Shown: positions 5,732-57,390 of the stretch, piece by piece
Numbering within the stretch: position 1 is the stretch's first letter
How the letters are laid out: each line of letters starts with the position of its first letter
DNA from: Cloeon dipterum
Taxonomy: Eukaryota; Arthropoda; Insecta; Ephemeroptera; Baetidae
Length of the DNA: 64,000 nucleotides
NCBI RefSeq assembly: GCF_949628265.1
Contig: NC_088787.1
Location: 36,072,844-36,136,843 of the forward strand
Reading direction: 5' to 3'
Position numbers and translations under genes: made by a program
Notes under the pieces: generated by a model
What the model was told of the DNA's origin: nothing
Database searches by the model: none
Seen by the model: the letters and a program-made list of their open reading frames with translations, nothing else

Positions 5732-8700
5732 TTATTTAATATCGCTTAACACGCGCAGTTTTTCCACTAATTCAAAATGTCCTGATTCTTCAGCGTAGTT
5801 AAGAGCAGTTTTACCCGCTCGGTCTGGTTTGCTGATGTCCACGTTCTTGTACACCAAAAGCTCAACGACCTCCCACATATTTCTGCGGCATGCAAGAATA
5901 AGAGCGGTCAAACCAAGCTCATTACATTTGTCCAGCTCGACTTTGATTTCCTCATCGACTAGCCAACGAATCACTTCCGGTAAGCCGCGAATGATTGCCA
6001 GGTGCAAACAGGTACTTCCGTTTTCAGTTATTTCCTTTACAAGCCCATTGTTCAGCCTGTGGAGGAATTTGACCGTTTCGACGTCTTTCAGGGCATGGTG
6101 CAACACGTTCATTCCGTCGCTGTCCTTCAAAGTCAAGTCAGCGCCACGATCGATCAGCTTCCGCACTACATCCAAGTTTCCAGACGCTGCAGCCCAGTGC
6201 AAAGGAGATCTTCCTTTCTGATCTTTGGAACCGATGTCTGTGTCTTCTCTGAACAACAAAATATCGACGGCTTCCCATTTCTTGTGCTTGCAAGCAAGAA
6301 GAAGCGCTGATTCGCCTTTGCAGTTAACTGCATTCAAATCTAATTTGGCATTCAAATCTAATTTGATGTCCTCGAGAAGCCAACTAATCACATTCTCATC
6401 AACCTTCTTGCTACTTTTCATCGCCAAGATTAACAATGTGTTGTCCTCCTTGTCAACTTGTTTGACGAGCTCAACGAGAGTCTGTAGGATGATCGACGAG
6501 TCATCTTCAACCTTCTTCGAGGCTAAATGATAAAACAGCAGTTTAATTAAGTCTAAGTGTCCCGATCTTGCAGCATGGTGCAGAGCAGTTTGTCCTTTGT
6601 GATCCTGAGTGCTGACGTCTGCTTTTCTGTCCAGAAGAATTTGGATGACTTCAAATCTATTTTTTGAACAGGCTGTCATCAACGCAGTCTCGCCATTTTC
6701 ATTTTTAGCGTTTACGTCTACCTCAGCCTCATCCAAGAGCCAGCGAATCACTTCAATCGAATATTCAAACATCCCGATTGCAAGGTGCAAGGAAGTGCTT
6801 TTATCTTTGGTCACTTCCTTCACCAGCGCTCTGTCCAAACTTTTCACAATGTCCAAGTATTGCAGTGCGTAGTGCAATGTATTCTTTCCGAGATTGTCTT
6901 TCAAAGTCGGATCGACACCTCGTTCGACCAGCTTCTTCACCAAATCCAGATTTCCTGTTTCTGCAGCACAGTTGAGAAGGGTTTTTCCTTTTGTGTCTTT
7001 AACTCGGACATTCACATCCTTCGTCAACAGAGTTTCGACAAAATCCCACTTTCTCTTCTTGCAAGCAATAATAATAGCTGAATCGCCGTCTTTGTCCACG
7101 GCATTTAGATTGATTCCCGATTCCTCAATTAGCCAATGAACCACATCCTTTTCAACTCTAATATCTGTTTTAATCGCATACAGAAGTAAAGTGGTTTGTC
7201 TCCTATCCAATTCCTTAACGAATTCAACGTTTTTCCTATATAGATATAAAATCATTTCAATTTTTTTTAATCCATAGAACATGACATTTCTGTTGTAAGT
7301 GTCCTTCTTTGTCAAATCAGCGCCACGATCGAGCAGATTTCGCACTAAATCCACACATCCTGATCTGGCGGCGTGGTGCAGGGCAGTCCTCCCACCTGTA
7401 TCTTCTTTGCTTAAGTCGATGCCCTCATGTGACAAAAAATATTCGACGACGTCGCTTCGATTCTTTCTACATGCAATCATGAACGCCGTTTCACCGAGTT
7501 CATTAGTCACATTCACATCGATTGCAATTTCTTCGATGAGCCAACGGATCACTTCAAAGGGGCAGTCATCGTTTTCAGTGGCAATGTGCAGGTATGTATT
7601 GCCATTATTTGTCACTTGCTTCACTAATTCACCATTTTTCTCATGCAAGAATTTCACCATTTCAAAGTGCTTTAAAGCATGTCGTAAAATGTTTCTTCCG
7701 TTCTTATCTCGAACAGTCAAATCACCGCCATTATTAATAAGGTCTTCAGCAGCTTCCAAATTATTTGAACCGATGGCGAGTTGTAGTGCCGGAATTTCTG
7801 ACGTTTGCTTTGTACTATTACAAATACTTTGGTCGAGCAGCATTTCCTCAAGTGCTCCATAGTTCTGTGCTTTTGCAAATTCAAGGGCGCTGCATCCATT
7901 GACGTTTTGTACATTAATATCAGCACCCTTTTCGAGAAGCTTTTGCACTGATTCTGGGCAGTTCAAATCTATTGCCAGGTGCAGTGCAGTCCATCCATTT
8001 TGGAGTTGTGAATCCACATCAACGCCGTAGTCGAGCAGCTTTTGCAATAATTCAAAGTTATGTTGCGCAACAGCGATATATAGAGCGGTCATTCCATTTC
8101 CTTCTTTTGAATTCACATCAGCGCCGTGGTAGAGCAGCTTTCCACTAATTTTGGAGTATATCTTGCAGCTATGTGCAGAGTAGTCCATCCTTCAGTTTGT
8201 TTTAAATTCACATCGGCGCCGTGGTCCAACAGATTTTGACTTAGTTCTGGGTTAAATCTTGCAGCTAAGTGCAGAGATGTCCATCCATCTCTTTGTTTTA
8301 AATTCACATCGGCACCGTGGTATAGCAGCTTTTGGCACAGTTCTGGGTTAAACCTTGCAGCTATGTGTAGAGATGTCCATCCATCTTTATCTTTTAAATT
8401 CACAGCGGCACCGTGATTGACCAGCTTTTCCAAAATTTCTGGATAGTTCTCTAATGCTGCAAGGTGTAGAGCGGTACATCCTAGATACTGACTTTCATTG
8501 TTTACGTCAGCATTATTATTCAAGAGAACTTCCAACAATTTCTGATTTCTATTAATTGTGGCGAAGTTTAAACATGTTAAGCCATGATTGTTCTTCGAAT
8601 TTACATCCGCGCCACACTGAATCAATTTCTGCGTTAACTCTGTAAAGCCTTTGTAGGCTGTGAGGTGCAGAGCTGTCTCTCCTCTTTTAGTTTTCGTATT

Positions 8701-11700
8701 GATTTCAGCACCACTGTCGAGCAGCTTTTGAAACAAAACATGATTGTTCGTAAGAATGGCGTAATGTAACGCAGTCCATCCATTGTGATCCTTCAAATGC
8801 ACATCGGCTCTTTGGCTAAGCAACTGTTGAACCAAATCCAAGTTTCCTTCTTCTGCGGCATATTGCAGAGCTGTTCTTCCATCTTTGTCTTGCCTGTTAA
8901 TGCTCAAATTCTTGGTATTAAGCAAATTTTTAATCTTATCCCAATTCTTTTGTTTACAGGCAAGCAAGAGCGAGCCCTCACTCTTTCGTTCTTTGTACTG
9001 TTCATTGAGTCCAGGCTCGTTCTTCACATGTAACAATCTAAACTTCCCTTTCTCTTCTGTTAATTGTAATGCCGTACGTCCATATTCATCTCTCATTGAC
9101 AATTCTCCGCCTTGTTGAATCCACTGCTGCAGGGACAGTAAATCACCAGCTTCTTGTAAAGAAAAAGGTACCGGTGAATTCTTCAAGTCATTCTCGGTAG
9201 AGGGATCGATGTATTGTGCTCTTAGAAAAATGGTTAATGATTTGTCTAGTTCTCTGTCGGCAGCTATACTAGCAGCTTTGTTTGTTAGGCTATCCCTGAC
9301 ACTTAAATCGACTCCAGCGTCTTCAACCAAGAATTTCGCAATGCCCACAATACTTGAAATGGCTCTTCCACAATCGTTTTGGTTGCAATTTTCCACAATA
9401 ATATGCAAAGCTGTTTGTCCTCTTCTTGTCTTTGTTTTAACAAGGTGTTTGCTCCGTGAATGTAGCAGTTTAATTGTGTCAATATTTTTGTCTAAAAGAC
9501 AAGCATAGTGTAATGCGTTCCAGCCGTCAACATCCTTCGCATCGATGTCGGCTTCGGCCTCGAGGAACTTTGCAACAAGTTCTGTATAACCATATTTCGC
9601 AGCGTAATGAAGGACTGTTCTCCCCTGTTTATCCTTTTCTTTGACTTCACTTTTAAGCAGCAAGAAGTGCTCATAATTCTCAAGCTCATATTGCGTCCAA
9701 CATTTTCTATCTCTGTCCGGGATCAAAGATTTGACATCAGAGTTTGGTAAATGAGCTAGCCAATCTAGTACTTCCCACTTTCTCAAAAGAATTGCCAAGT
9801 GCATAGGGCTTTTTCCGTCCTTCGTTTTAATATCAATCAAAGCTGGGCACTTTGAGAGCAAATAAGCAGCTATTTCTTTGCGTCCGTACATGATAGCATA
9901 TTGGAAAGGATTCCAAATGTCTCGCAGCCCATCAAGAACCAATGTAGATTCGTTTCGCTTGAACGCGCTGGATTTTTCTTCCACAATGACCTTAACCAGG
10001 TCCAAGTGACCAAATTCGGTGGCCACATTCAATGGATCATAGCAAGTACTAGCGTAAAATACATTTTGGGCTCCGTGTTTGAGCAGAATTCTCAAGCACT
10101 TGACACTTCCATATCTGCAAGCCATAAAGAGACTGTTTTCTTCTTCTTCAAATGCATCAACAGCACGAATTCCATTCTGGATAAGCAAATCGAGGAGTAT
10201 GTCAAAATCTTTTCGAATTGCTGCAAATCCTACTTTCATCAGCCTTTTGCTCGCTTCAGATACGTTTGAGTAGCAGGCATCAATCATGTCAGGCAGATTC
10301 GAAAATTCCAATCTTAATTTGTCCAGGATGATAACCGCATTATTCTCTTCAATTTTCCGGAGCAAATCAGGCAAAATTTGTTCTAAGCCAAGTTCATCAA
10401 TAACTCCCATCTCCAGCAGTTGAACAGCGATTTCTTCTGTGCCGATTGCACTCATCAACAGTTCTGGGCTTGTTTCTATGCAAATGGAAGCATTTGATTC
10501 TGCGTGAAACGAAATTCTGGGCTTAACCATTGTGAAAACCTGTCTCAGATTATCTTCAACAATTTTTTTCAAGAAAATAACAGGTTCAATGGATTTTGCA
10601 ACAGCTAAAAGAGCTTCCACATGATCTTCTAAGTCTTCTGTTTCTTCTTCTTCTTCTTCCAGGGTGCGGTAGAATAGGTCCAAAAACTTCCTGCACTGCG
10701 CAGATGTGCTATCTTGGAACAGCGCCGAATCCAATGCTTGTGACGAATCAAAATCCTTCAAGAATTGCTTTGTGGCCAAGAATTCAGCAAACGTTTGATG
10801 CAAAAAAGTGACTCTTCCGTCTAGAACAGTCGCAACGCCGTAATCGTTCATCTTTTCCAAGTCTTCCTTAGTTATTCCGTGTCCAATCAGGCTCTCATTC
10901 CTCAGGAAGCGCAAAGCAATCAGTTGGAGATGACTCAAAGCCAAAGCCATCTTTAGGGGGAAATTTGCCTTGTCGTCAATATTTAATCCATCCTTCACAA
11001 GGCACAGCTCAAGTTTCTTTTCAACAACCTTTGCGTAAATTTGATACAAGTTTCCTTCGCTTTTGCTGGAGACTAGCAATGTGAGGTGCAAAGGATTTTC
11101 CAAAATATCCTTCTCCTCAAAATCACTAATGAACTGTTTGCATTCTTCTTCATTCTTTCCAGCTACAACCTTCAAGAACTCGATTTGCTTTTCTTCGTTC
11201 AGAGGTTCCACCCCTACAAGTACTTCGCTGTTAATTCGTTCCTTGATTATTTCAGCCTCGTGGGGTCTCGTGGCGATAAACATGGGAACTTGCCTTACTT
11301 TCAAAGTATGGAACAATGTGATAACGTTTTCTCTGAGAATAGGACAGATTTCATCGAATCCGTCAAAGAAAACAACGGCCCTTTTCTCTTCAATCCACCT
11401 TTTGATATCGTCTGTGGAGTGATGTGTTGCATGCGCGAGGAATTGGTTGAGTCTGGGCTTGTCCAAAATGGTAAACGAATGCTTCTTCAGCGAGATATAC
11501 AAAATTTTCAAGTCAGGGTCGGATTTCCCGAGTTGGTAAGTGATTTCTTTGAGAACTGTCGTCTTTCCGGCTCCAGCAATGGAACTCATGAGCAAAACTT
11601 GACCCTTTTCAAATGATTTTTTCGCTTCTCTAACCATTTCATCGAATTCAAAGATTTTTACCGTCGAGTTTTCATCATACCTCAAACTGAAACTTTGACT

Positions 11701-11900
11701 GACAAAAGTTCGTGGCCAGTCGGGGAAGTCGAGAAGGTATTGCAGCGTGGAGTTGATCAAAACAGTGTTCTTCTTTGATTCAGAAATTAGCAAAGGATAC
11801 AAAAGTTCTTGAAGACTTTTCCCTTTTTTGAGATCCTCGCTTTTGAAGATCCTGATCAGCTTTTTTAACAATTCTATTAAACACATCTTTAAGTTTCTTA
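5732..11900 (-). CDS. Exon 9: NACHT NTPase and long ankyrin array
   Basis: This is a single exon of over 6 kb. Counting from the Met at 11886, Walker A (GAGKTT) is at residues 105-110, Walker B (FFDGFDE) at about 173-179 and the TRPHE sensor motif near 207. Spacer helices follow, with an acidic run (EEEEEETEDLED). Ankyrin units such as DGWTALHYA and GADVNLK start around residue 570 and run to the stop at 5732. A one-base loss in an A-run near 8139-8143 shifts the frame in the middle of a repeat (…RYTPKL / KLLYHGADVN). Both sides stay open for 1,257 and about 800 codons, so the break is recent or an assembly error. Ankyrin repeats in place of leucine-rich repeats are known in invertebrate and fungal NLR-like proteins. 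Confidence 0.85.
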
Positions 11901-14900
11901 CTATATATTAAAAAAACAATGAAATTGAAAAATTCGAAGTCGAGTTAGCGACGGAGGATCGCCGGGGAGGTCCCCGCGAGCGTTTTCGCAAATGGGCGCC
12001 CGGGCGCCGGACGCCCCCGAGGGGGCGAAAACCGCCCCCGAAAAAACTTTCGTCTAACGATCGGGCCGAAATTCGGTGGGCGGCTCCGGGGCACACTCCG
12101 AAAACCGCCGCGCGGGCGCGTTCGCCCCGCAAAAGTCCGCGGGGCGCCCGGGAGCCCCGCGAAGGAGGCGCACCCGCGGGGCGGGTCGTCGGACCGGCGC
12201 GAGACTCGCGGGGGCGACGGAGGCGGCCGAGGCGAGCCGGACGAGCATAGGGACCCGGGGTCGCCGAGGGCGGGAAAGGGGCGCGGCGGGGCCCCGAAGT
12301 CGGCGCTCCCGGGGGCGGCCGCGGAACGGCCGCGCCGATCGGGCCGTGATTCGGCGGGCGGCACCGGCGGCGACCCGGGAGGCCGCCGCGCGGGCGCGTG
12401 CGCCCCGCGAAAGTCCGCGGGGCGCCTGGGAGCCCCGCGAACGAGGGGCACCTGCGGGGAGGGTCAGCGGATCGGCGCGAAATTTTCAGGGATGGAAGAG
12501 GCGGCCGAGGCGAGCCGGACGAGCACGGGGACCCGGGGTCGCAGAGCGCGGGAAGGGTGCGCGGCGGGGCCCCGAAGTCGCCGCTCCCGGGGGTGGCCGC
12601 GGAACGGCCGCGCCGATCGGGCCGAAGTTCGCGCGGGCCGCGGCGCGCGGGTCGCGGAGTCGGGCGCCGTCGTCGCGGGAGCCCGCGAAAGTCCGAGGGG
12701 CGCTCTGGAGCCCCGCGAACGAGGGGCACCCGCGGGGTTGGTCGTCGGATCGGCGCGAGATTCGCGAAGGCGCGGGAGGCGGACGAGGCGAGCCGGACAA
12801 GCACGGGGACCCTGGGTCGGATATCGCGGGAAAGGGGTCTGGCGGGGCCCCGAAATTGCCAACCCCCGGGGTTAGCTTCGTAACGGAAGCCCTGATCGGG
12901 CCGAAATTCGCGTCGGCATTAGCGTGGGGTCGTAGAAAATGACGCCGCAGGGCGGCCGCATCCTCGTAGCTACCCCCAACTGGAGTCAGCTGCCCCCCTA
13001 GGGTTGCCATATCGCCAGAGTTCGCGAATAAGTTTTGTCAGGCGCCCGAGTAGGGCGGCCGATACACGTAGCTACCCCCTACTGGAGTCAGCTGCCCCCC
13101 TAGGGTTGCCACTCTCCCATCAGACGCCTAGCACTAAATTCTACCACGCCTCCTAGGGTTGCCACATGTCGTAGAGATTGCCAAAACTCAATGTGGCCGC
13201 CAACCCTAGGGTTGCCGCACGCCGTAGAGACTGCCCGAACTCAAGGCGGCCGACCACTCTAGGGTTGCCAGTCACCACACGACCGGACCCAACTTAAGTC
13301 GGCCGCGCTCCCAAAGGTTGCCGCACGCCACGGGGACGGCCCAAACTTGAGGCGGTCTCGCTCCCTAGGGTTGCCACACGCCGTAGAGACTGCCCGAACT
13401 CAAGGCGGCCGACCACTATAGGGTTGCCACACGCTGTAGGGACACCCAAAAATCAAGGCGGCCGCCCACCCTAGGGTTGCCACTCTCCCATCAGACGCCT
13501 AACACTTAAGTCTTCCACGCCTCTTAGGGTTGCCAGACAACATCGGGACGACCAAAACTAAAGGCGGTCGGGCACTCTAGGGTTGCCAGACACCACAGGA
13601 CCGGCCACAACTTAAGTCGGCCGCGCTTCTAAGGGTTGCCACACGCCATAGGGACGGCCCAAATTCCAAGCAGCCGTGAACCCTAGGGTTGCCACACGCC
13701 ATAGAGACTGCCCTAACTAAAGGCGGCCGCGCACTCTAGGGTTGCCAGACACCACAGGACCGGCCACAACTTAAGTCGGCCGCGCTTCTAAGGGTTGCCA
13801 CACGCCATAGGGACGGCCCAAACTCCAAGAAGCCGTGAACCCTAGGGTTGCCACACGCCGTAGAGACTGCCCTAACTAAAAGCGGCCGCGCACTCTAGGG
13901 TTGCCAGACACCACACGACCGGACCCAACTTTAGTCAGCCGCGCTTCCTAGGGATGCCGCACGCCATAGTGACGGCAAAAACTCAAGGCGGCCGCGCACT
14001 CTAGGGTTGCCAGACACCACACGGCCGGACCCAACTTAAGTCGGCCGCGCTCCCAAAGGTTGCCGCATGCCACGGGGACGGCCCGAACTTATGGCGGTCT
14101 CGCTCCCTAGGGTTGCCACACGCAGTGGGGACCACTCGAAGTCGAGGCGGCCGCGCACCCTAGGGTTGCCACCTGTCACGGGGACGCCCCGAACTCGAGG
14201 TGGCCTCGCTCCCTAGGGTTGCCGCACGTCACGGGGACGCCCGCAACTCGAGGCGGCCGTGCACCCCGGAGTTGCCGGGGGGCGAATCCTCGGTCGCGCG
14301 GAAAAAGTCGAGACGTATAGGGGGGGGGGGTGAAATTACCATATTGTAGTCATAAACACATTATTTTATCAAATACTGTAGTTACCTTTATCCTTTAAAA
14401 TCAGAACCAGCCAGCCACTGTGATTCGTAGCCGATATTTCATACTTTCTCTCTTGTAAATGCTTAGAGAAGAGCTCAATTAAAACAAACTCTAACATTCA
14501 AAATTACGAGTAATGACTTACTGTGTCACTTTTCAAGGCATCATGATCAATTAGAATAAATATTTTCGGCTTCCCGATCCACTGGGCGTTTTTCGGGCCG
14601 ACAAATCTGTGCAGAATGTCTGTGATTGGTTTCTTCTCTTTGCCGACAAGTATGCAAACTTCCTTCTTATCGTTTTCACTCACTTCGCCGAACATACATG
14701 TCAAAATGCAGCCGACGTCATGCTCCAACTCGCTACCTGAGAAATTCGTATGTATCAAAGTCAGTTTCGATGTTGACCAAAAATGGGAGGCTTACATATT
14801 GTGAAATACGAGTTCAAAGAGAGTTTGTTTAATTGAAACGATCTTGTCTCAAAGTCCAAGTTACGAACTGCCTTAACCAGTTCTTGCACTTGTGCACCAT

Positions 14901-16262
14901 GTTGCGCAAACAAAATGAATGCGTTTCGACCTCTAACGTTCTGTCCTTCATCAGAGATCCTTGTGAATGTTTTGGAATACGTCGTTTTTGACCCTGGTTT
15001 CGCCATTTTTCCATCAGTTCTTGGATGCGTCACTGGAGCAATCAGTGTCCTGAAAGTGAACCAATAAATATTTAAATTAAAATAAACTGATAGTACTCCA
15101 CCTTGAAATGAAGAATTCTCGGTCTTGAGTAAACATCTTTATTTCTGGCGTCTGACCCAGGGATTCACTTGTTTTCAAATTAGTCATGGCACGCGACGCA
15201 AAGTGCACGTTGTTCTGCACAACCGAGAGGAATTCCAACAATGACTTTTCCTCAGTCTGATTCAAACAGTTGCAGTAATTTTGTACAAACCAAGACCCAC
15301 GTTCACTTGAGTTCGCTAGCGTTGCTTTGAAAGGGAAGAAATTTTAAAATTAAGTTTGATAAATAATTACGTCGAAGCATACTTTCGACAGTTGAATAGA
15401 ACACCACCAAGTTGTGGATTGCTGGAGTGAATGTGATCCTGCAGGAGTTACGGTTGTTGTACGACCCTTCACACACGTTCATATTCCTGTTGAACTTGGA
15501 GTCGGCCAATAACCCACGACAGGGCTGGAAATGCGAATACTCCCTTTAAATAACGGGTTTTCATGAAAATAAGTCTGGAACCTACGCCGAAATTGATCAG
15601 TTTGAGGCTTTTTTCGAACCTTGTCAACTTTTTCATCGAGTCAAAGATTTCATCCGTCGTGAAATGAGCGTGCGTTGTTTGATTGTCAAGCAAGTGGTCG
15701 GTATAAATGATGCCATCTTCATATCCATGAGAAAGTACGAAAAGAAGAAACACGTCTGGGGGATCTACAGATTAAACAAATTCAGTTTAAAATACTATTA
15801 TTTAAAGTCTGTGCTAACCCTTCGAGGAGAAAAATCGCAACAGCTTATCCTGATCACCAAGAAAATCGAGCAAATCCTTTTTTTCCGGCGACTTAAGATC
15901 ACGAAAGTTGCAGTTCCTGTTTTTTCCTAAAGATGTCTTCAGGTTCTGCACGTCAAGGGGATTCCCTGTTCGAGCAATTTCTTGGCTTTCAAAATCATAA
16001 TGGACGACAAGTACAAAGACGCTTTGAACAAAAGGACAGTCAGTTTCAAAGTTCTTAAGTTTTGAAGGTATATCATTACTCGTTTGCTTTATTTAGCTGG
16101 GCGTCCGTCTTAAAGAAACCTAGATTTGCCTGCCCGATGGGACGACCTTCTTCTTCACCTAAAAAAATTCATGTTTTTTTAATTTCTTTTCCCAACCACT
16201 TATATAGTATTTTGTTTTAAATATAAAAACATTGTTTTACCTTTTTTCAATATTTCTTCCAT
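5732..16262 (-). CDS. Caspase - pseudocaspase - NACHT - ankyrin repeat protein (NLR-like)
   Basis: Nine coding exons on the minus strand can be joined: 16262-16241, 16158-15819, 15764-15586, 15524-15371, 15324-15102, 15049-14796, 14736-14522, 14473-14386 and 11900-5732. Every junction from exon 2 on keeps phase. Domain 1 is a full caspase: LSHG carries the His (codon 15729-15727), PCRG carries the Cys (15521-15519, just after a splice junction), and GSWFVQ marks the p10 part. Domain 2 is caspase-like without catalytic residues. Then come a NACHT NTPase and ankyrin repeats to the end. The predicted length is about 2,500 residues, acting presumably in the cytosol as a sensor that oligomerises and activates a protease. 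The frame is broken by one base near 8140 and again near 16090 in exon 2. The fusion rests on phase and domain fit, not on a transcript. Confidence 0.75.
11945..12935. repeat. GC-rich satellite, 279-bp period, about 3.5 copies
   Basis: The marker GATCGGGCCG recurs at 12059, 12338, 12617 and 12895, giving spacings of 279, 279 and 278 bp. Units also share GCCGAGGCGAGCCGGACNAG and CGGGGCCCCGAA. Copies differ at many bases. The very high GC content creates long open frames on both strands, and these are artefacts. Confidence 0.9.
12940..14290. repeat. GC-rich minisatellite, 53-bp period, about 25 copies
   Basis: The motif CTAGGGTTGCC recurs about every 53 bp; for example it starts at 13206, 13259, 13312 (variant) and 13365. 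Between the motifs lie variable segments such as ACACGCCGTAGAGACTGCCC and GGCGGCCG. The array directly follows the 279-bp satellite. It is not a telomere repeat and not a CRISPR array, because the whole unit is repeated and no unique spacers occur. Confidence 0.9.
14386..15049 (-). CDS. Exons 6-8: second, catalytically dead caspase-like domain
   Basis: GRNAFILFAQHGAQVQELVKAV aligns in position with the start of a p20 subunit, and GKPKIFILIDHDA aligns with KPKlffiQACRG but has no Cys. ILTCMFGE stands where ILSHGE should be, so the His is gone too. The p10 part begins in exon 8 (SGWLVLIL) and runs on into the long NACHT exon (CLIELLKKL), where it parallels GSWFVQ...SLLEFLSVV of domain 1. That continuation is the best evidence that exon 8 and the long exon belong together. 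Dead caspase-like partners such as cFLIP regulate active caspases, and a similar role inside one chain is an inference. Confidence 0.7.
15371..16262 (-). CDS. Exons 1-4: first caspase domain, p20 part and start of p10
   Basis: The ATG at 16262 opens a 22-base exon, followed by an acidic stretch (GEEEGRPIGQ). From about 16080 the frame shifts by one base into the p20 fold. RTGNPLDVQNL matches the usual R.Gt..D..L helix, DPPDVFLLFVLSHG carries the catalytic His, and SLKLINFGPCRG takes the place of KPKlffiQACRG with the catalytic Cys kept. FYSTVESML begins the p10 part. No CARD or DED prodomain is visible, so an upstream exon may be missed. The residue before the Cys box is Gly-Pro instead of Gln-Ala, unlike most insect caspases. 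Confidence 0.75.
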
Positions 16263-40659: not shown

Positions 40660-42300
40660 ATAATGGCGATGAGACCGTAATGTATGAAGAACTTGCTAAA
40701 GGAGCCAATTTGTGCAAGGAAGATGTGAAAGGACTGTCCCTGGACGAAGCAGTTCATTCAGCAGTGAAATACATCCTCAGTAAGTACATAACCACATTAC
40801 TCAGAATTTTGTATATTATTTGCACTGCTAAAAGTCAAGATACTGGATACGAAAAAATGTAGACATAAGACTTTAGGTAGTATGTCAAGAAATTAGCAAA
40901 ATCAAAAAATTATGTAATTTATGATCTCGTTTTTCAATAACAATACTAGGATTGTAAAAAGTATTGAGAAACGCATATTTATATTATTAATCTGTTGCTT
41001 TTCTATCCCTCCTGAGAGGTTTCCTAAATCATCTGACTCTGTTAAGTACTTAAAATTCTATGTTCGCGATTTGCGATGTCATCAGGCAAATACAATTTTA
41101 TTGCAAAATGAGAGCAGCAAAGCAATATAATAGGAAAAATTTTCACTAGTAAAGAATATACTGCAAATTAGTTTGGGGAAGGAGATGAAATTTCAGCTAC
41201 GGCACTGGGTTGTCCTAATAAATAATGAATGATATTTTGAAAAAAATACTGGTTCTTTTCAAACTTGAATTCATTCATGAATTTTCGACATCTAGCTAAA
41301 CAATGGTTCGACGTGTTTAAGGATATTGAGGCAGTCCGCAGTTTCCAGCCTGGCCAAATGAATATGCTCTCTTTGAAGCAAGTTATCTTGCAGGCCAAGG
41401 CAAAGAGACCCAAGAAGAAGAAAAAAAGGAAACAGCTGTTGCAGGTATACTGAAAAATAAATGAAAATTCATAAAATAACACAAACGACTAGGAGTAACA
41501 GGTCAAAGCTGTGAAGAACTTTATAAAGAAGAACAATATCTTAAGCAATTCAAAATAGGAAGTATTCTTCGTTTGGATGCCTTGGACGAAGACGATAGAT
41601 CTCGACAGATGCTGAAAAATGGTAATGTTAATGGATGAAAATGTTCAAATTATAATAGTAAATCAAATTTTTTAGGACTGAGTGTCCATCAAGGATTGAA
41701 AGGTGTCAAAAGTAATATTTTTGTAGTCTAAACTACGGATATTCTAGAAAATTGAAACAAATTTCTTTCCATGTACACGTAGAATTCCCACCCCCATTGA
41801 CTGAGGTCGACTCTGAGGAAGACCTTCCTTCAAAAATGGACCACTCATTAGCCAGTACCAGCAAGGTCCACAACAAAGGTAAGCTAGATGGGCACGCGCG
41901 TCAAGCGCCCATACGCACCCGTCATGCACCCAATAGTACGCGTCATGCACCCAATAGTACACGTCATGCACCCAATAGTACGCGTCATGCACACTGAAGA
42001 CCGCGTCATACAGCAATCCTGCATGATGCACTAAGGTGGCTGCTGCATGACGCGTACTATTGGGTGCATGACGCGTGCATTTGAGCGCAATTGAGCTGTA
42101 CGCAGTTCTAGCATCGCTACTCTTACATTTGTGATATTATTTTTTAACAATTTTTTTTCATTTCAGCTTGTACGGAAGCCAAGAAGAAAGGCATCAAGGA
42201 CCTTGGGGAAGAGCAGGAAAAGGCGAATGCGTTGAAACCCAGCAAACCCATGGAATCAAGGGCCAGCACCAGCCAGGTGCAGAACAAAGGTAAGCCAGAT
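40660..42300 (+). CDS. Unrecognised multi-exon gene with repeat-bearing introns
   Basis: Apparent exons are 40663-40780 (YEELAKGANLCKEDVKGLSL), 41265-41444 (LNSFMNFRHLAKQWFDVF, then a Lys-rich run KKKKKRK), about 41503-41621, 41676-41711, about 41755-41878 (EFPPPLTEVDSEEDL) and 42167-42290 (ACTEAKKKGIKDLGEEQ). Most end in good GT donors. The junction into the exon at 41755 could not be brought into phase. The last two exons share the ending AST SxVxNKG and the same intron start, so an exon-intron unit has been duplicated. No domain is recognised; the Lys-rich stretch could be a nuclear signal. Confidence 0.45.
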
Positions 42301-42875
42301 GGGCACGCGCGTCATGCGCCCATACGTACTCGTCATGCACCCAATAGTACGCGTCATGCGCACTGAAGGCCGCGTCATGCAGCAATCCTGCATGATGCGC
42401 TAAGGTGGCTGCTGCATGACGCGTACTACTGGATGCATGACGCGGCCTTCAGTGTGCATGACGCATCAAATGAACGCGTCACGCACCCAAATGTACGCGT
42501 CATGCACCAAAAAAGTACGCGTCATGCGCCCAAATGCACTCGTCATGCATCCAGTAGTACGCGTCATGCACCCAACAGTACGCGTCATGCACACTTAAGG
42601 CCGCGACATGCAGCAGCCACCTACACGCATCATGCAGGACTGCTGCATGACGCCTTATTAAGTGTGCATGACGGGTACTGTTGGGTGCATGACGCGTACT
42701 ACTGGATGCATGGCGCATCAAATGAACGAGTCACGCACCCAAATGTACGCGTCATGCACCAAAAAGTACGCGTCATGCACCCAAATGTACGCGTCATGCA
42801 CCAGAATTTCGCGTCATGCACCCAAATGTACGCGTCATGCACCAGAATATCGCGTCATGCACCTGTGGGTGCTCG
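41885..42875. repeat. 21-bp minisatellite in both orientations
   Basis: The unit CGTCATGCACCCAATAGTACG recurs in plus orientation at 41930-41995, 42330-42360 and 42480-42860 (variants with AAATGTACG or AAAAAGTACG), and inverted at 42030-42080, 42410-42470 and 42640-42720. Because 21 is a multiple of three, open frames with heptads such as RHAPNST (plus) and YYWVHDA (minus) arise. These are most likely intronic artefacts. A small outlying copy lies at 43455-43545. Confidence 0.9.
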
Positions 42876-47284: not shown

Positions 47285-47668
47285 TTAAATTTGGAGGTCG
47301 CTGATTGATCCCAATTTCCCATTTGATTTAACCCGTGGAATATTGGGAGACGTAAATGTGTGCTTGACCCCCAGTAAACCGCAGACCTCGCTAAACAAGT
47401 CAGACTTAAAGTTAGAGCCATTATCCGTTATAATTTCTTGAATTGCACCATACCGACAAACTACTTGCTCGATCAACGACTGAACCACAGTCTTTGCTTT
47501 CTGATCTGGGATTGCCGCGGCCTCAACGAATTTTGTAAACGCCTCCAGCATTGTGAGGATATATTTGTTGCCGGTCTCTGACTCTGGGAAAGGGCCCACC
47601 ACGTCTATGTACCAGCGCTTGCCTACCGAGCCTGGTGCGAATGACATTTGCTGTTGAACCTGAGACAA
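47285..47668 (-). pseudogene. Gypsy-type integrase fragment
   Basis: The frame contains WYIDVVGPFPESETGNKYIL and EIITDNGSNFKSDLF, the first two acidic residues of the DDE integrase core, then breaks off before the Glu. It has no LTR or other Gypsy domain beside it. It belongs to a different Gypsy lineage from the element at 50-58 kb, where the same places read DAIGPLPRSSSG and LSDNASQF. Confidence 0.8.
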
Positions 47669-47678
47669 CCTACACCGG

Positions 47679-48563
47679 TTGTCTGCTGATATGCTTCAAG
47701 ATTTCTGTGAAGCAAATTATTTAACACTCAACGCGTCAAAGTCGGTTCTCGTGCAGTTCCGGGGACAAAAACATAATGAATCCCCTCAAATAGACCTCGC
47801 CGGCAAAATAATTCCGTGTGCAGAACAATCCAAATTTTTGGGGCTTCACGTGCGACAAGACTGCAAGTGGAACGACCACGCGCAGTACGTAAGTGGCCGC
47901 CTGCACACAACGGTGACAATGTTTAATAGCCTGAAGGGGAATGTTGATGAAAAAGTTTGTTAAATTTTTATAATGCTCATGCGAATTCGATAATGTCATA
48001 TGGTATTGTGATCTGGGGAGCAAGCGATGGGGCGCTGCGGACTGTTTTCGTGGCCCAGAAGCGGCTGATTCGTGCCCTGGCGGGCGAAAGGTACTGGAAG
48101 GGGTTGACGCCGCTGTGTTCTGCGAGACCACTTTTTGAGCGGTACAACCTGCTTCCAGTGTTTTCAATATATTTATTCGAGGCATGTAAATTTGTAAAAA
48201 AAAATACCCCGCCCACTTTAAAAAGACCAGGGACGTGCATGGGCATGGAACGCGCCGCGCGCCTGAATTGTATATTGCTCCTCAGAAATTGATGATTTCG
48301 CAGCAAAGTCCATTATCTAGAGCTGCAATTTTGTACAATGCCTTGCCAGTTTCGTTACGGCTTGAGCCGCGATACGATAAGTTTGTCGTTGCTGTGAATG
48401 AATTTCTTCACTTAAAGAAATGTTACGATACTGATGAATTCTTTGCATATGTAACAAACCTTTGATTTTTATTTGTATTATTGTGTGTGCATTGCAATTG
48501 GGGGGCACATTATTAGAATGTAACATATCTGATGTATATGGCCTCGCCAAAAGTCAATAAAGA
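47679..48563 (+). mobile_element. 3' end of a Jockey-like non-LTR retrotransposon
   Basis: The 5'-truncated reverse transcriptase tail reads LTLNASKSVLVQFRG and SKFLGLHVRQDCKWNDHAQY in one frame. From about 47957 a second frame reads IMSYGIVIWGAS, VAQKRLIRALAG and LLPVFSIYLFEACKFV, the usual C-terminal helices of Jockey-type ORF2. A third frame carries the last residues to 48465. The 3' end has AATAAAG and a short (ATT)n tail. The protein ends are shifted by frame breaks. Confidence 0.75.
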
Positions 48564-48564
48564 T

Positions 48565-50460
48565 TATTATTATCTTGGATTTATTCTGGATGTTATTATT
48601 ATTATCTTAGATTTATTCTGGTTCAACAGTTATACACATAACCCGGCGGGCCTACAAGAAGAGGCCAAACCGGGAAATGGCGAGCAAACAAACAGCGTGG
48701 AAATTAAAGTGCGAGAGTCTTCCTGACGATGTTGGCAGTTCCAAGTACTGCAGCTTTCTGCATCAGCTTGAGGTGGTTTGTTGTCAGCGGCAATGTCTCC
48801 ATCAGCTTCTTCCAGTCTTTGAGCACAACTCCATTGGTAGAAATGACAACAGGAACCACGTTGATTTTCCCCAGGTTGTAGATTTCCTTCAACTCCACTG
48901 CGAGCGGCTGATACTTTCTCTTTTTTTCGACGACGGTTCTCTCCACATTGGCATCCAAAGGCACGGCGATATCGATGATCAGGCCTTCTTTCTTCCGTTG
49001 GTCAATGACGACGATGTCCGGTCTGTTGGCCTCGACTGCTCGGTCAGTCACCATCTCCGAGTCCCAAAGAAGGCGCACTCCTCCAGCTTCCATGACCTGC
49101 GGTGGCTTGCATCTGTCATAGGGCTGCTCTTCCTCCTGTAATTTGAGGCTTTTAGCGAGCGCTTGATGCACCACCTTCGCGACATTGTTATGCCGCTCAA
49201 GATACTCCCTGGGAGCCAGGACACTGCATCCTCCGCAAACATGTTGAATCGATTCGTTCTGTACCCTACATAATCGACACCTATCAGAGACATCCTGGCG
49301 CATGACATGCCTCTGGTAACCTCGAGTGCTAATCACCTCATCTTGAATGCTAAGAATAAAACCTTCAGTCTCACCAAAAATACCCGAAGTTCTAAGCCAC
49401 TCAGTTGACCATTCCTTGTCTACATTCTGAGATTCCAGCACCCGAAGAAAACGACCATGCAACTCCTTTCCTCGCCATTCCTGCTTCCTGTCTTCCAAAC
49501 TCATCAGGGGAAACTCAACGGGATCCACCGAGATGAGATCAAGCGCACCAAATGCCAAGTTCTTTTCTTGAATCACTTCGACAAACTCTGACCTGTTCTG
49601 CATGAAATAGTGCCTCAACTGTTCACATTGCCTAGCACACATGACCTCTAAACATAGAAGACCTCGTCCTCCTTCTTTCCTCGGGATGTACAATCGCTGG
49701 ATTGAACTTCGTGGATGATGAAGCCTAAACTTGGTTAAGGTGACTCGAATCTTCCTATCTAATGCCTGCAATGAAGACTTCGACCATTTCAAGACTCCAA
49801 AACTGTACACAGCAACTGGAATCGCCCATGAATTAATCGCTGCGATCTTGCTCCTCCCTGACAAATATGTCTTGCAGACCTTTCGAACTCTAGCCAATAC
49901 CCTCTTTTCCACCAACTTTCTGACGTCACTGCTATTGATCTGCAAAAGCTGCTGCATACCCAAATACTTGTAGCTGCCCCCTTCTTCCAAAGAATCAATG
50001 ACCTCTCCATTCAGCAACTCTAAAACTTCTGCTCCTTCAACCACTTTCCCTTTCCTTACATGAACAGCAGCGCACTTCTCTAAACCAAATTCCATCTTGA
50101 TCGTGTCACTAAACTTTTCTACCACTTCCAACATCTTTTTCAGCTGCCTTTTATTGCTTGCGTAGAGCTTCAAATCATCTAAATATAACTGGTGGGATAT
50201 TAGACCTGCTGGCACTTCAGACATTTTATAACCGCACTTCAGATCGTTGATCAGCATGCTCAGTGGATTCATCGCTAATATAAACCAAAGAGGGCTAAGA
50301 CTATCTCCCTGAAAAATTCCTCGTCGAATCTGGATCTCGTCAGTTCTTGTAGCATTTGGTCCTCTTCCTACAATCAGCTTTGTTCTCCAACTCTGCATAC
50401 AAGTCTGTAAAAGGGTAATAACAGCGCCATCTACCTTATATAGTCGAAGTTATTATTATT
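48565..50460 (-). mobile_element. R2-group non-LTR retrotransposon, 5'-truncated
   Basis: A 564-residue open frame (50398-48704) runs from the middle of the reverse transcriptase to the end. GIFQGDSLSP is RT block 4, YLDD (residues 72-75) the catalytic site and KYLGMQQ block 7. After the RT comes a CCHC knuckle (CRLCRVQNESIQHVC) and RPDIVVID..IIDIAVP, the PD-(D/E)XK endonuclease typical of R2, R4 and related clades. The frame can be read about ten codons further upstream, then stops. The 3' side ends in (TAATAA) repeats at 48560-48610. Such elements often have a fixed target; none can be read here. Confidence 0.85.
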
Positions 50461-50810: not shown

Positions 50811-53800
50811 ATCACCATTTCCAGCTCCAAAGAATTAGGTGCCATTTTCGGTCAACCTAATCCAGAACCAGAAACGCTTGAGAAAGAAATGGCAGAAGAA
50901 CTGCAAGACTCCGCTATCGTCAAATTTCAAATTCCCAGCCTTCGCGGAATGTGCGAGAACGCGTTGATGACGGACGCGCTGTCCGAAGAAAATCCAAACG
51001 ATTTTATCCTGCAACTAGTACACCATTTCGAACGCGATAGAAACCAGCAAGTAGGCGATGCTGCGTACAGTACGCGATCCTGCAATTCAATCACGCGAGA
51101 GCCCAGTCCAAAATCGCGGGAAGAACAAGAGGATTAATTGCGAAACAGCTCGAAATGATGAATAAATCGTTCTACACAGCCCCATCTCACCGTGATCGAA
51201 TCACAGAAAATACCGCGAAGTTAGTAGAGTTCGAAAATTTTGACGAGTCCAGAGAAGTTCAATTTGCAGCAAACAAATCGGCACTGCCGAATCCCTCAAG
51301 CAGTTTGCACCGCGAAAGCGAATACGCTGAAGCAAGTCGTAATGACATGCACAGACGTACACTCCATGAGACGAGGGAAAAATCATTTCATCCCTCGCCA
51401 GGGCAAATCGGACACCCATTACCGTCCGAAAGTCCCCAGAATTTGTTCGGCAGAAATTCATTCGGCCCTCAGACAGCTAATAATTTAGCAGCAAATTCTA
51501 AATTCTATCGTGCCAGCAATTCGTACCAGAAGGGCACTTGGGGGTCTACGCAAATCTATAGGGATGTCGGTTGTCTAGGGGGGATCTTGATCGCTTGGGG
51601 GAATAATCTAGTCGCGGTACGAACAACTACAGAGAACGTAGGTAGAAAAATGACAAATCAAACACACAAGATTAATCTGAGAAAAAATGAATTAATATTT
51701 AATCAATTTATTTGAACACTTAATTGAGATCTCACTGCTTTACTCTTAAAACTCTAACTCTACTTGACAAACTTTGAACTATATCTCAGACTTTCAGGTT
51801 TCTTATTTCACAATTGACTCTCTCTAATCACAATCTGAATTACTTTCCGCGAATTCACACTCCGCTCTGCCCTTACATACCCGCCTTATCACGTTTTCTC
51901 AGGGAAAAACCACCGCTAGCCGCGAGAAGGAACACACACGTCCGTCTCCTTTCGCAGCCAGAAGCCAAGAGAGAGACGCGGCGGAAGCGTCATGACGCTA
52001 TCTCGCAACGGTTATTTCAAACCGCGCGCCGCGCTCTCATTGGCTATTCGGTGGGGCGCGCACTGAGCGCCCCCACCTCTCCCGACCAGCCACGATGTGG
52101 TTGAGGGCATCGGGAGAAGTGGGGAGGTAAGGGGCAGAGTCGGACGGAATTACATAAATTAACATCAATTAACCGAAATTATGCCGACAAAATAAACATA
52201 AATGTTAATTACATCATAAATCAACCGCCGGCCCACGCCGGCGAGCGGGCCGCGGGGCTGGGGGGCCGTCAGATGGCGCCCTGCCTAACCATTTCGCGCC
52301 ATTTTGGACGCTTTGTACTTAGGGCTGAAAATACGAGTTCTGGGCTCTTTTGGGGAGCCCAGACTCGCATCACACGGTTATTTGCTCGATATTTAATCAA
52401 AACTCAAATAATATGTCAGCGATTTGCCGCTGAGTCTCAAAAAATAAACAAATTTCACGCGGGCTTGGCCGCACCGCGCGCCATGTGGCCGACGCCGCCG
52501 CACTTTGGGGCCGTTTTGGGGGGTTTTTGGGTGATGACAGGGGGTGCGCGGGGTGTCTTGTCACGATTTGAATCCCTACCTGTAGCTGAGATTTCATCTG
52601 CGGCGTCAAATCACTCATTTCGGGATCTAATCGGCACTTTTATTGACAACACGATGCACTTGGCCGGCTAGCGTCGCTGCTTGGTTTGCACACGGTGCGT
52701 TTCCCACGTCTGGCTCGCTAGATGGCGTTGGAGCCAGCCAGGCGCAGGAAACGCGGGCCACGCTTGCCGGCAGTCACCTTATAAATTCATCAAGAAATGC
52801 AGGTGACGAAAACATTCCTGACCTACGCAATACCCAAGACACCATGACCACACTCAACAATTCATTTATGAATGCAGGACAAAATTCCACGCTGCATTCT
52901 GCTCCAGATTACACAAATTCCACGTTACATTTTCCCGTAAATGACTCAAATTCCTTGTTCGGATCGTATGGCATGCGCCAGCCACAACCAAATCCTACAA
53001 ACGATAGGAATGTGCAAGGCCAGCTGCACAATGACCCAATTTCACACATTACTCAAGCATTTCTGCAAGCCATGCAAATGACGCTAAACAACAGCAATCG
53101 TGATGACTCACAAAAAATCCACAAAATCAGAATTCCCCAGTACAAAGGCAAGCTCGACTCAAAAACCCCGCTGGAATATTTGAAACTAATTTCAAACCAG
53201 GCAAAAATTTACCAAGTAGACGAGTTGAAATTGATTCACATCAAGATGCCCGCACGCTTGGAGGGGGATGCGAGTTACTGGTATGATTGCGTGGGGAAAA
53301 ATTGCGCGACTTTACAAGAATTCAAAAACTTGTTCATGACTGAATTTGCAGCCGTGTATTACCTCCGCAGTTTGAAATGTGAATTAGAGCACCGGACCCA
53401 ACATGTTAATGAACCACTCACGACTTATATTCATAACATCAAGGTGTATTACGATATCATCGACAAAAAGCCAACGGCAGCGAGATCATTGAGCGGGGAC
53501 TTGACCAAATGAATCCCCAATATTTTCCGTTCATGCAGAAACACAATTTCAGCACGTTAATGGATTTATTGGAGGAAGCCGCGCGCGCTCAGAGTTTCAT
53601 GTACAAAACAAAGACGTATATTCCACCGCCTTCTGCCGCTGAGAGTTTCGAGACATCTTTAGCGTATACCGGACGCCCTGTTGACAATACCCTTGCGCCA
53701 CAAGAAATTCCGCTCGAGACGCTGAATCCGCAGCTCTCACGTTCACGATCGCGCCGCAAAAAAAGGCATGAGAAGAGAGGCAATTCGCGAACAAGTTCCT

Positions 53801-54033
53801 ATTCACGTGATACTTCGCGCCACAGGTCAAGTGAGCGTAACGCGCAATTCAACAAAAATCAGGACAGGCGCCGAGATTCGCAAAGATCCTATTCACGCGA
53901 ATCACGTGACCACTCTGCTCACAGAAGCGACAGTCGTAGCGACTATCGCCATTCATCTGGCGATAGGAAAGACAAATACGCGCATAAGTACAAAAGAGAC
54001 TATTCCGATTCCAGCAAGCAAAAGCCGAAATAG
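50748..54033 (+). pseudogene. Gypsy gag region, interrupted
   Basis: Open pieces 50748-51137, 51155-51540, 52643-53512 and 53509-54033 lie in different frames. The third holds a Retrotrans_gag-type core (IPQYKGKLDSKTPLEYLKLI, MPARLEGDASYWYDC). The fourth is rich in Arg, Ser and Asp (SRSRRKKRHEKRG), a nucleic-acid-binding tail without a CCHC knuckle. A 1.1-kb insertion splits the second and third pieces. Confidence 0.75.
51540..52632 (+). mobile_element. Insertion within gag, possibly LTR plus leader
   Basis: It is flanked by the direct repeat GGCACTT (51533-51539 and 52633-52639). It starts TGGGGGTC. At 52270 there is ...GTCA, then at 52274 TGGCGCCCTGCCTAAC, a good primer-binding-site form, which would make 51540-52270 an LTR of about 730 bp. 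The rest of such an element is missing. Coding frames in it are not meaningful. Confidence 0.5.
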
Positions 54034-54131
54034 GACAATAAAACCAACAGCTCAAGCCGCGAGCACAGCCGCGAGAAAAAACGAGACTTAACTCCACACA
54101 ACAAAAAGTCGGGAAACTAAAAAAGAAACCT

Positions 54132-57100
54132 GTGAATCAGGCCTCGGAGAGGCACAGGCGACAAAAAATGAAGGAGAAAAACTTGAAAGCAATGCTTGAC
54201 CAGTCAGTTCCACAAATAAAGAGAATGAAAAACACAAACAGCGTAAATAACGATCGGCCGTATATTCCTTTAACCATTTTCGGACGCCATTACAAAGGTT
54301 TAGTCGACAGTGGCAGCGACGTTACTTTGATTGGATTCAAACTATTCCAAACCATTAGAGAAAGGAAGCAAAAAATTCGCTATGCAGCAAAAACGATTAG
54401 CACGTTGGGTGGAAAAACAATCGTAGAAGCATTAGTATAATTGAAAATTGAGTGGAAAGCAGGAAAAGTCACAATTCCTTGTTACGTTCTCTAAGACAAC
54501 GGAAATTCTATCCTATTAGGCAGAAATTTCATGCGAGCAGCAAAAATTGGAATGACATCAAATGGTTATTTTCACGCTAGCCAGCCAGAAAAAGTTTTCA
54601 GATTCACGCGCAAACGCGAAGCGGACTTGAAATTGTTCCACGCGAAAGTAGATGAGCAGCGAATTTTGCGTGAGCTGCTGAAGGAGAAAATTGAAAACGA
54701 CCAGAGCGACCAATTCCTCGTCATGCTCAAGAAATACAACAAATTCGGAATATTCAGCGAAAGCCCCGGATTAGCAAAAAACTTTGCCGTTAATGTGGAA
54801 ATAAAAGATGCACTTTCATTTAAAACATCACTACGACCATTGAATAAAGAGATGCGGACGATATTGGATGCTGAACTCGACAAAATGCTCGAATATGACG
54901 TTATCGAGGAAGCTGATAATATTGTATTTGCTTCCCCTATTCATTTGGTTAAGAAGAAATTTCCACCTGGAGAAAAACAAAAGTACCTCTTAGTAAGCGA
55001 TATGCGTTTTCTAAACGGTAGGACTATTGCAAGGCCACACTTGATTGCTCAAAACCTCGACACCATATTTAGTCAAATCAAGGCGATATATTACACAAAA
55101 ATCGACTTGAGTGGTGCATATTGGCAAATGCAAATAAAATCTGACGATCGAAAGTATTTTGGAATTAACACGCATCGCGGATTATTCCAATACAAACGAG
55201 CCCCGTTCGGATGGAACGCGTCAGGTTTCGAATTTCAGAGATTGATGGATAGAACATTAAAAGGATTGATTGGAGATTTTGTTGTTAATTTCTTTGACGA
55301 CATTGTTATTTACAGCCATTCCTTTGAAGAGCACGTATTGCACGTGGAAAAAAGTTCTAAAACGCCAACACTCTGCAAATTTGACAAGAAACCCCAAAAA
55401 GCTACAAGTAGCAGCGACAGATATTGAATTGCTTGGACACAAAATTTCACAGGGAAAAATGATTCCTATGGAGGAAAAAATAAAAAGTATAAAAAATACA
55501 AAGCTCCAGAAAACAAGAAAGAAGTCATGCAGTTACTAGGTGTAACCGGATTTCTTCGCCGTTTTGTTCCAAATTACCAGATCGTGGTAGCACCAATTAC
55601 TCAACTTCTCCGTAAAAATTCAAAATTCAACTAGAGTAAAACGCAGTGAAAAGCATTAGATCAAGTGATTCACCATTTGACGTCCGACCAGTGCGTATTA
55701 CATTTGCCAGATATGAACAAAACATTTGAAATTTACGTGGACAGCTGCAAAAATGGAATTGGCGCGATACTGATGCAAGACGTTGACGGAGAAGGCCCAA
55801 GACCAATTTTCTACATCAGTAGACAGACAACAGATACTGAGAGAACCTTTTGCGTTTCAGAATTAGAAGCAGTCGGTTTAGTCTGGGCTATTTCTAAGTT
55901 CCAGGACTATATTCAGTATTCCCGTTTTGTCGTCTACTGTGATCATCAGGCAATAACTTCTGCACTAAACAAACCCTTCCGGCCGTTTAAAACGGTACGC
56001 ACTTTACTTAAGTTTCAATTGTGAATTAAAATATCGCCCAGGTGACTCAATGGGAGCACCAGATGCATTTTCGCGCAATGCTGTTTACACAATCGACGAT
56101 TTCAAAAAGCCGAACACAGCACGTGACTGCACAATCCCTCTGGACGAGATCAAACGAGATGGACAAATTACGTTCAATGATGAAAATTGCCCAACTGTAG
56201 AACACAATTGCAACAGATGCGAAGACAAACCAGTCAAGCTTGTGCACTCAAAAGGACCACGAAAAAAGAAAAATAAAGTTGCTGAAAAGGAGAAGAAAAA
56301 TGAACCAAGCAAGAAGAAAAAATTGCCAAAAGCAAGATATTCAAGTAAATTAGTAAACCCATCGCCGCAAGAACTGAAAATGGGAAAAAGATTAAAAGTT
56401 CTGATTGCGCAACTCCAAGATTTACCAGATTTTCCAACCAATGACGAGCAGTGGAAAATTGAGCAAGACAAAGACGTAGAAATTTTGGCACTGAAACAAG
56501 CAGTAAAATTAGGCCATAAACGGAAATACGGTTTAATAAATGATGTGTTGCAATATACCGCCAAAAACAAAAACTTAATTGTTTTGCCAGCGCACTTGAG
56601 AACTGCCGTATTAAAATATGGCCATTCTGATGTGTTGTCAGGCCATCCAGGCAAGTTTATAATACAAAAGAAAGATGCAAATTATTTTATTTGGCGCAAC
56701 ATGAATAACGACTAACGACATCAACGAGTTTGTCGCAGGATGCGAAATCTGTCAACGAGTTAAGTCAAAAAACCAAACAAAATTTGGCTTATATAACAGA
56801 AAACTCGAATCTCACGTCGGAAATTTACTTAGCGTGGATGCCATCGGACCTTTGCCGCGCAGTTCAAGTGGAAATGTACATGCCATTGTTTTTACTGACG
56901 TATTCAGTGGCTATACAAAAATTTTTCCAACTCGCACGTTGATCAGTAAAGTTGTAGTTGATCGTTTAGTGTCGTACTGTACCACTTTCGGAATACCAAA
57001 ACGCATACTCTCAGACAATGCTTCCCAATTTGTATCAAAATTGTGGAAAGACACTTGCAAACGTTTAGGTATTGAGTACACAGTGATCAACCCATACAGG

Positions 57101-57390
57101 CCATGCGAAAATAGAACTGAAACAAAGAGTTAAAAAAGAAGATTCGGTGTTACGCGCAAAGCAACAACAAATTGTGGGACGTTAATTTGGACGCGATCGC
57201 CTTTGGTATAAATTCCGCGGTGTCTTCAAAAACAAAATTTACACCAAATATGCTAATGTTAGCGCGCGAACTTCACCACCAACAAATGCCACGCGAACCA
57301 GCTGACGAGATTGAATATCACGAGTATGCCAATGAGTTGATTAAACGATTAAAGACAGCAAACGAAAATATGAAGGGCCGTATCGCATAA
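54132..57390 (+). pseudogene. Gypsy pol: protease, RT, RNase H, integrase (broken)
   Basis: The domains are in Ty3/Gypsy order. Protease at 54132-54440 has the active triad in LVDSGSDVTLIG. RT at 54531-55427 has FASPIHLVKKK, KIDLSGAYWQMQI and FFDDIVIYS. RNase H at 55665-56024 has FEIYVDSCKNGIGA and SELEAVGLVWA. Integrase starts with a HHCC region near 56600-56760 (GHSDVLSGHPGK, then CEICQR in another frame) and continues at 56834-57133 with DAIGPLPR and LSDNASQF; the Glu region is broken at about 57120. Frames change at least at 55427, 55540-55665, 56024, 56715 and 57133. The element cannot move by itself. Confidence 0.9.

Follow-up and report, generated by a model that had tools for sequence, protein, structure and literature searches.

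Do the caspase exons and the long NACHT-ankyrin exon that follow each other in the genome of the mayfly Cloeon dipterum belong to one gene and, if so, what could a protein do that carries a protease and a receptor module on a single chain? The exons are located on the minus strand of a 64,000-nucleotide stretch of DNA, here called the window (C2:36072844-36136843 in a 190-Mb, 10-contig assembly, with contigs labelled C2, C4, C5 etc.). A first-pass annotation, made from the letters of the window, had proposed a single gene that combines an active-type caspase, a dead caspase, a NACHT domain and ankyrin repeats. Our analysis leads to a similar picture: the locus is probably a member of a family of protease-armed NOD-like receptors (NLRs) in mayflies of the family Baetidae, in which the dead caspase would serve as a c-FLIP-like partner in cis.

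Gene model and the junction between the caspase and NACHT parts

Nine GT-AG introns with consistent phases connect the ATG at 16262 with the NACHT-ankyrin exon (Table 1), which agrees with the location of all parts on one strand and with their phase-1 join across a single intron, as initially proposed. In protein alignments, the gene model matches the family protein P0003 at 79% over 1327 aa, starting from residue 1, and P0002 at 76% over 1743 aa, starting at P0002 residue 25. An ordinary 58-bp intron near the N terminus (16079-16022) was placed by comparison with P0003, and the acceptors at 14461 and 11873 were set by comparison with P0002. For the latter, the first-pass annotation had used position 11900, but this adds nine residues that are absent from P0002. 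Because LKDK/DLLEKL of P0002 aligns with LKDK/ELLKKL, the acceptor is most likely 11873, and a Met codon at 11886 is therefore intronic. The early Pfam, PDB, protein and genome queries were performed with a preliminary model; the final model has a different N terminus and a few changed residues at two junctions. In the genomic sequence, a short reading frame on the minus strand (16281-16237) starts with an ATG 19 bases ahead of the start ATG and overlaps the start codon in a different frame.

Eight of the introns are 52-82 bp long and have a G+C content of 0.18-0.39. The ninth, which separates the caspase exons from the NACHT-ankyrin exon, comprises 2512 bp and owes its high G+C content (0.66) to two satellite arrays, with units of 278 bp and 53/159 bp. 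These 2.5 kb with satellite DNA, the Met codon at 11886 and the annotation of two family proteins, P0040 and P0041, with a start at the NACHT domain would be compatible with two neighbouring genes that are only seemingly joined. However, in L021 and L022, two genomic stretches from C4 in which the junction was examined to the base, a GT-AG intron of 62 bp and 64 bp, respectively, occupies the identical codon and phase, which identifies the satellite-filled intron of the window as a swollen ordinary short intron. Moreover, the Met codon is located inside the homology-defined intron, and the putative dead caspase fold is completed, at its small-subunit end, by the NACHT exon. Together with L023, which is likewise from C4, these stretches contain the caspase, the second fold and the NACHT domain in this order, on one strand and each within ~5 kb.

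The same arrangement is seen in annotated proteins. Three protein searches, each scoring ~8000 candidates, the set within which the spread outside mayflies was also judged, yielded 94 distinct proteins (72, followed by 15 and 7 new ones). With profiles derived from the 58-row alignment described below, first caspase, second fold and NACHT were detected in this order, and thus across the junction, in 80 of the 94 proteins. Direct succession of the three parts was observed in 78 of these carriers, and P0042 and P0053 showed a split second-fold match; 57 carriers had contributed to the profiles and 23 had not. Seven further proteins lack only the first caspase and seven have the NACHT domain alone. 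The Pfam columns of the database, counted by eye, list C14, NACHT and ankyrin repeats together in 54 of the 72 proteins from the first search. Thus, the matching domain order in annotated and genomic paralogs and the shared junction intron support the assignment of the caspase and NACHT-ankyrin parts to one gene, and two separate genes appear very improbable.

Table 1. Parts of the predicted caspase-NACHT-ankyrin gene in the window
Feature	Position	Strand	Description
Whole gene	ATG 16262 to stop 5732	-	10 exons; active-type caspase, caspase-like fold without catalytic Cys, NACHT, ankyrin repeats
Exon 1	16241..16262	-	ATG at 16262, MEEILKK; aligned with P0003 (MEEILKTGEEEGRP) starting at residue 1
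Exon 2	16080..16158	-	N-terminal leader; GT-AG, phase 1 in, phase 2 out
Exons 3-6	16021-15819, 15764-15586, 15524-15383, 15324-15102	-	First caspase, active type (span 15102..16021)
Predicted catalytic pair	His114 codon 15729-15727; Cys163 codon 15521-15519	-	First caspase, SHG and GPCRG motifs
Exons 7-9	15049-14796, 14736-14522, 14461-14386	-	Linker and most of the putative dead caspase fold (from ~14955; span 14386..15049)
Junction intron	11874..14385	-	Phase 1, 2512 bp; two GC-rich satellite arrays, 12058-12910 and 13147-14264
Exon 10, first frame	11873-8113	-	End of putative dead caspase fold, NACHT, start of ankyrin repeats
Exon 10, start	11704..11873	-	Final elements of putative dead caspase fold (ELLKKL ... 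STLQYLLDFPDWPRTF); secondary structure from the model of paralog P0035
NACHT	11173..11577 (Pfam span)	-	Walker A AGAGKT, Walker B VVFFDGFDE
Ankyrin array, part 1	8113..10146 (upper edge approximate)	-	In frame with NACHT; Pfam Ank families
Frame slip site	8113..8191	-	Within a 96-bp tandem repeat (8093-8429) of the ankyrin array
Ankyrin array, part 2	5732..8191	-	Shifted frame of 819 aa, stop at 5732; Ank_2 1.7e-130

The active-type caspase and its putative dead partner

The joined exons of the first caspase match Peptidase_C14 in Pfam (E=7.7e-17), and scanning five short frames of the caspase region one by one revealed no Peptidase_C14 match. In the PDB, 65 distinct sequences were retrieved with the joined exons at E <=0.001, and the best 60 of these 65 are all caspases. 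Conservation was assessed in an alignment of 58 rows, consisting of the window model and those 57 of 87 proteins in which both caspase folds and NACHT are covered; the other 30, partial rows, and the 7 proteins found later are not part of it. The catalytic His is present in all 58 rows, the catalytic Cys in 57. These data support a conserved catalytic pair and the label "active type" for the first caspase, with a substrate preference that the motif does not fix.

The substrate-binding S1 pocket is less regular. Its positions, two Arg and one Gln, are those that we take from general caspase motifs. The first Arg is found in 57 of 58 rows. At the usual Gln position before the catalytic Pro-Cys, 55 of the 58 rows carry Gly (GPCRG-like), and only 38 keep the second Arg, which is Ser in the window copy. 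The altered pocket therefore makes Asp specificity uncertain. The Gly substitution and the missing second Arg (20 of 58 rows, including the window) could even indicate that cleavage after Asp was lost, and that the first domain is a protease of other specificity or serves only as a scaffold for oligomerisation or binding. With the catalytic pair and the first S1 Arg almost invariant, we consider this rather unlikely.

The second fold is more divergent. When the window sequence was used alone, the PDB returned weak matches to five sequences, caspase-8 and caspase-6, at E 0.54-0.64 (best caspase-8, 0.54). A family profile of 20 slices reached E=2.6e-8, and the best 60 of 128 matches (E <=10) are all caspases. 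Pfam C14 matches were obtained for 6 of the 20 family slices at E up to 1, with a best value of 8e-6. In an AlphaFold2 model of the paralog P0035, the strands and helices of the second domain are ordered as in the first; the VIA-align rows for this model reached the first caspase domain only (model residues 25-284). The small-subunit part (aa 465-521), which corresponds to the p10 part that the first-pass annotation had predicted to be completed by the NACHT exon, is indeed encoded in this exon, as judged from the family alignment and the P0035 model and not from the PDB profile.

The catalytic columns of the second fold were located at window residue 385 for His, by the PDB alignment, and at residue 432 for Cys, by ungapped extension. 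Cys is present at the matching column in 0 of 58 rows and His in 2 of 58. Hence, the initial distinction between an active and a dead caspase agrees with the state of the catalytic pair across the family. Three observations speak against this assignment. The PDB profile match spans the large-subunit part alone; hhalign comparisons of the second with the first fold, including four further settings, gave a probability of ~0.5%, no better than column-shuffled controls; and P0004 and P0076 retain His at the matching column, without Cys. On balance, sequence profiles and the paralog model support a caspase fold that has lost its catalytic pair, Cys always and His nearly always.

NACHT domain, ankyrin tail and the state of the window copy

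The NACHT domain is recognised by Pfam (E=1.4e-10), and many Ank-family matches are found in both frames of the ankyrin array. The nucleotide-binding motifs are well conserved: GK[ST] is present in 58 of 58 rows, and Walker B ends with DE in 55 of 58. Foldseek matched the P0035 model to NLRC4, NOD2 and NLRP3. Thus, the earlier description of a NACHT-ankyrin exon was correct in its domains, but it did not mention that the ankyrin array is interrupted by a frame slip. The first frame of the gene model encodes 1717 residues up to a stop at 8113, and the ankyrin tail resumes in the other frame (8191-5732), where it is 73-75% identical to P0002, P0005 and P0041 over ~810 aa. A 96-bp (32-codon) tandem repeat with 81% matches at 8093-8429 holds the slip; in this it is reminiscent of fungal NLRs, whose repeats are highly conserved.

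Is the window copy, then, still a functional gene? The single frame slip between 8191 and 8113, at a position where the paralog P0005 reads through continuously, and the fact that none of the 94 family proteins is annotated at this locus both argue against it. The large satellite insertion in the intron and the isolated position of the locus, with no further family copy detected in the 60 kb that flank the window on each side, also fit a family that is real but is represented here by a decaying pseudogene. The closest annotated proteins match the window copy at 79% over 1327 aa and at 86% over 40% of the query.

On the other hand, no stop occurs in the 1717 and 819 codons. In simulations, random substitution of 2% introduced 7.0 stops on average and left 0 of 300 trials stop-free; at 1%, the mean was 3.9 stops and 7 of 300 trials remained stop-free. 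The copy was therefore probably under selection at least until recently. GT-AG is maintained at all nine introns. The slip is located inside a tandem repeat, a plausible site for slippage or a sequence error, and even the truncated product would be similar to P0003, which has 1344 aa. A decaying pseudogene is thus a less probable, although considerable, alternative to an intact family member. The slip itself may be an assembly error, the result of slippage or a first lesion. In view of the swollen intron and the ankyrin slip, the window copy may represent a shortened receptor or a recently broken one.

A Baetidae family and its putative mode of action

The search for the same domain order in relatives, suggested by the first-pass annotation, located all 80 carriers in Cloeon (54) and Neocloeon (26), both of which belong to the Baetidae, Ephemeroptera. 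Proteins outnumber genes in these counts, because those of Cloeon apparently stem from two assemblies. Outside mayflies, the same searches, at ~8000 scored candidates each, recovered NACHT without a caspase part in a spider (P0092) and a cockroach (P0093), both with ankyrins, and in a rotifer (P0094). The metagenome protein P0091 contains NACHT and ankyrins. A tree of the 58 rows, obtained by a quick method with midpoint root, separates a clade of 38 Cloeon rows from one of 12 Neocloeon rows, and in addition contains a mixed group of 7 rows, with two cross-genus pairs, and the long-branched P0071. According to this pattern, the caspase-NACHT fusion is most likely older than the Cloeon/Neocloeon split and was followed by separate multiplication. 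The annotated Cloeon proteins P0001 and P0004 contain two or three caspase-pseudocaspase units and are possibly merged models of tandem genes.

With NLRC4, NOD2 and NLRP3 the mayfly protein shares a central NACHT domain with Walker motifs and the order effector, NACHT and repeats. In contrast to these proteins, its N-terminal effector is a caspase domain, present as a caspase pair, and not a CARD, PYD or DD, and its repeats are ankyrins instead of leucine-rich repeats (LRRs). The strict definition of metazoan NLRs, as given in PMC11508797, requires C-terminal LRRs; with ankyrin repeats in their place, the mayfly protein is therefore NLR-like only in a broad sense. The statement of the first-pass annotation that insects are largely thought to lack NLRs agrees in part with PMC11508797, a survey that describes NLRs in Arthropoda (shrimp), although as proteins without an N-terminal effector domain.

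Within arthropods, P0092 and P0093 share NACHT and a long ankyrin tail with the mayfly protein but have no match to the caspase or pseudocaspase profiles. P0092, from Parasteatoda tepidariorum, has a weak Lipase_3 match (E 8.2e-5) that precedes two NACHT matches and ankyrins, and perhaps represents another enzyme-armed NACHT-ankyrin layout of arthropods. Caspase-bearing NLRs may also occur in corals. Among the literature matches listed, no title or beginning of an abstract described caspase-NACHT-ankyrin proteins in mayflies.

Fungal CHAT and S8 protease NLRs, as presented in PMC12881547, likewise use a protease as the N-terminal NLR module. The same source reports fungal proteases that are also fused to WD40, TPR or ANK repeats, links them to gasdermin-type death and describes CHAT as a caspase-like, separase-similar protease. 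The mayfly protease differs in being an animal-type C14 caspase accompanied by a dead second copy, and the likeness is thus one of layout only.

For the dead fold, the c-FLIP(L)/procaspase-8 pair is the nearest comparison, as both systems combine one active and one dead caspase domain; the latter is described for c-FLIP(L) as devoid of the critical Cys (PMC7586951). There, however, the two domains reside on two DED-recruited proteins, whereas in the mayfly both are part of the sensor chain. No DED or CARD was present among the Pfam matches of the window parts scanned, which leave out the 33 residues of exons 1-2. By analogy, the mayfly protein may work like c-FLIP, but, lacking tandem DEDs in its scanned parts, it is not a member of the c-FLIP family.

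Based on these comparisons, the layout suggests an effector-switch-sensor protein, and the reading that we favour is a self-contained death or immune switch with a built-in dead partner. The ankyrin tail would sense a ligand or keep the protein off, and nucleotide exchange in the NACHT domain would drive oligomerisation and so gather the caspase units. The dead caspase would most likely act in cis as a dimer partner that keeps the active caspase competent, a role that FLIP(L) plays for procaspase-8. The active caspase could then cut itself or downstream targets, leading to cell death or an immune response. As in the caspase-1 inflammasome, with its CARD/PYD recruitment, NLR oligomerisation would gather caspases, but the mayfly protein would need neither an adaptor nor a separate procaspase. 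Alternatively, the family could have a developmental role or protect against selfish DNA instead of sensing pathogens; this appears improbable, since the genus-specific clades and the NLR-like layout would better fit changing ligands.

An extended version, that mayflies possess a self-contained inflammasome with sensor, switch, active caspase and dead activator as an intramolecular heterodimer, and that this unit radiated into dozens of receptors, is put forward more tentatively. If the proposed function is true, an early-branching insect order holds many NLR-like receptors with a built-in output enzyme, which challenges the view of insects as animals without effector-bearing NLRs. Such a protein would also be a natural one-chain caspase-pseudocaspase pair, in which the control that a dead caspase exerts on a live one could be studied directly, and would provide an animal counterpart of the fungal protease NLRs.

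Apart from this gene family, clustered strong Peptidase_C14 matches are present at C5:27147932-27160033 and C4:1033374-1039141 of the same genome and probably represent ordinary caspases. The window itself also contains mobile and repetitive DNA. Pieces of a long terminal repeat retrotransposon are located at 52631-57130 on the plus strand, in several frames, and include gag, protease (weak), reverse transcriptase and integrase. A retroelement reverse transcriptase frame is found at 48707-50449 on the minus strand, with a separate integrase core fragment nearby (47288-47695, minus strand). Arrays of a 21-bp unit (CGCGTCATGCACC...) extend in both orientations over 41897-42863, and a 226-bp tandem repeat is present in 2.8 copies at 59167-59804.

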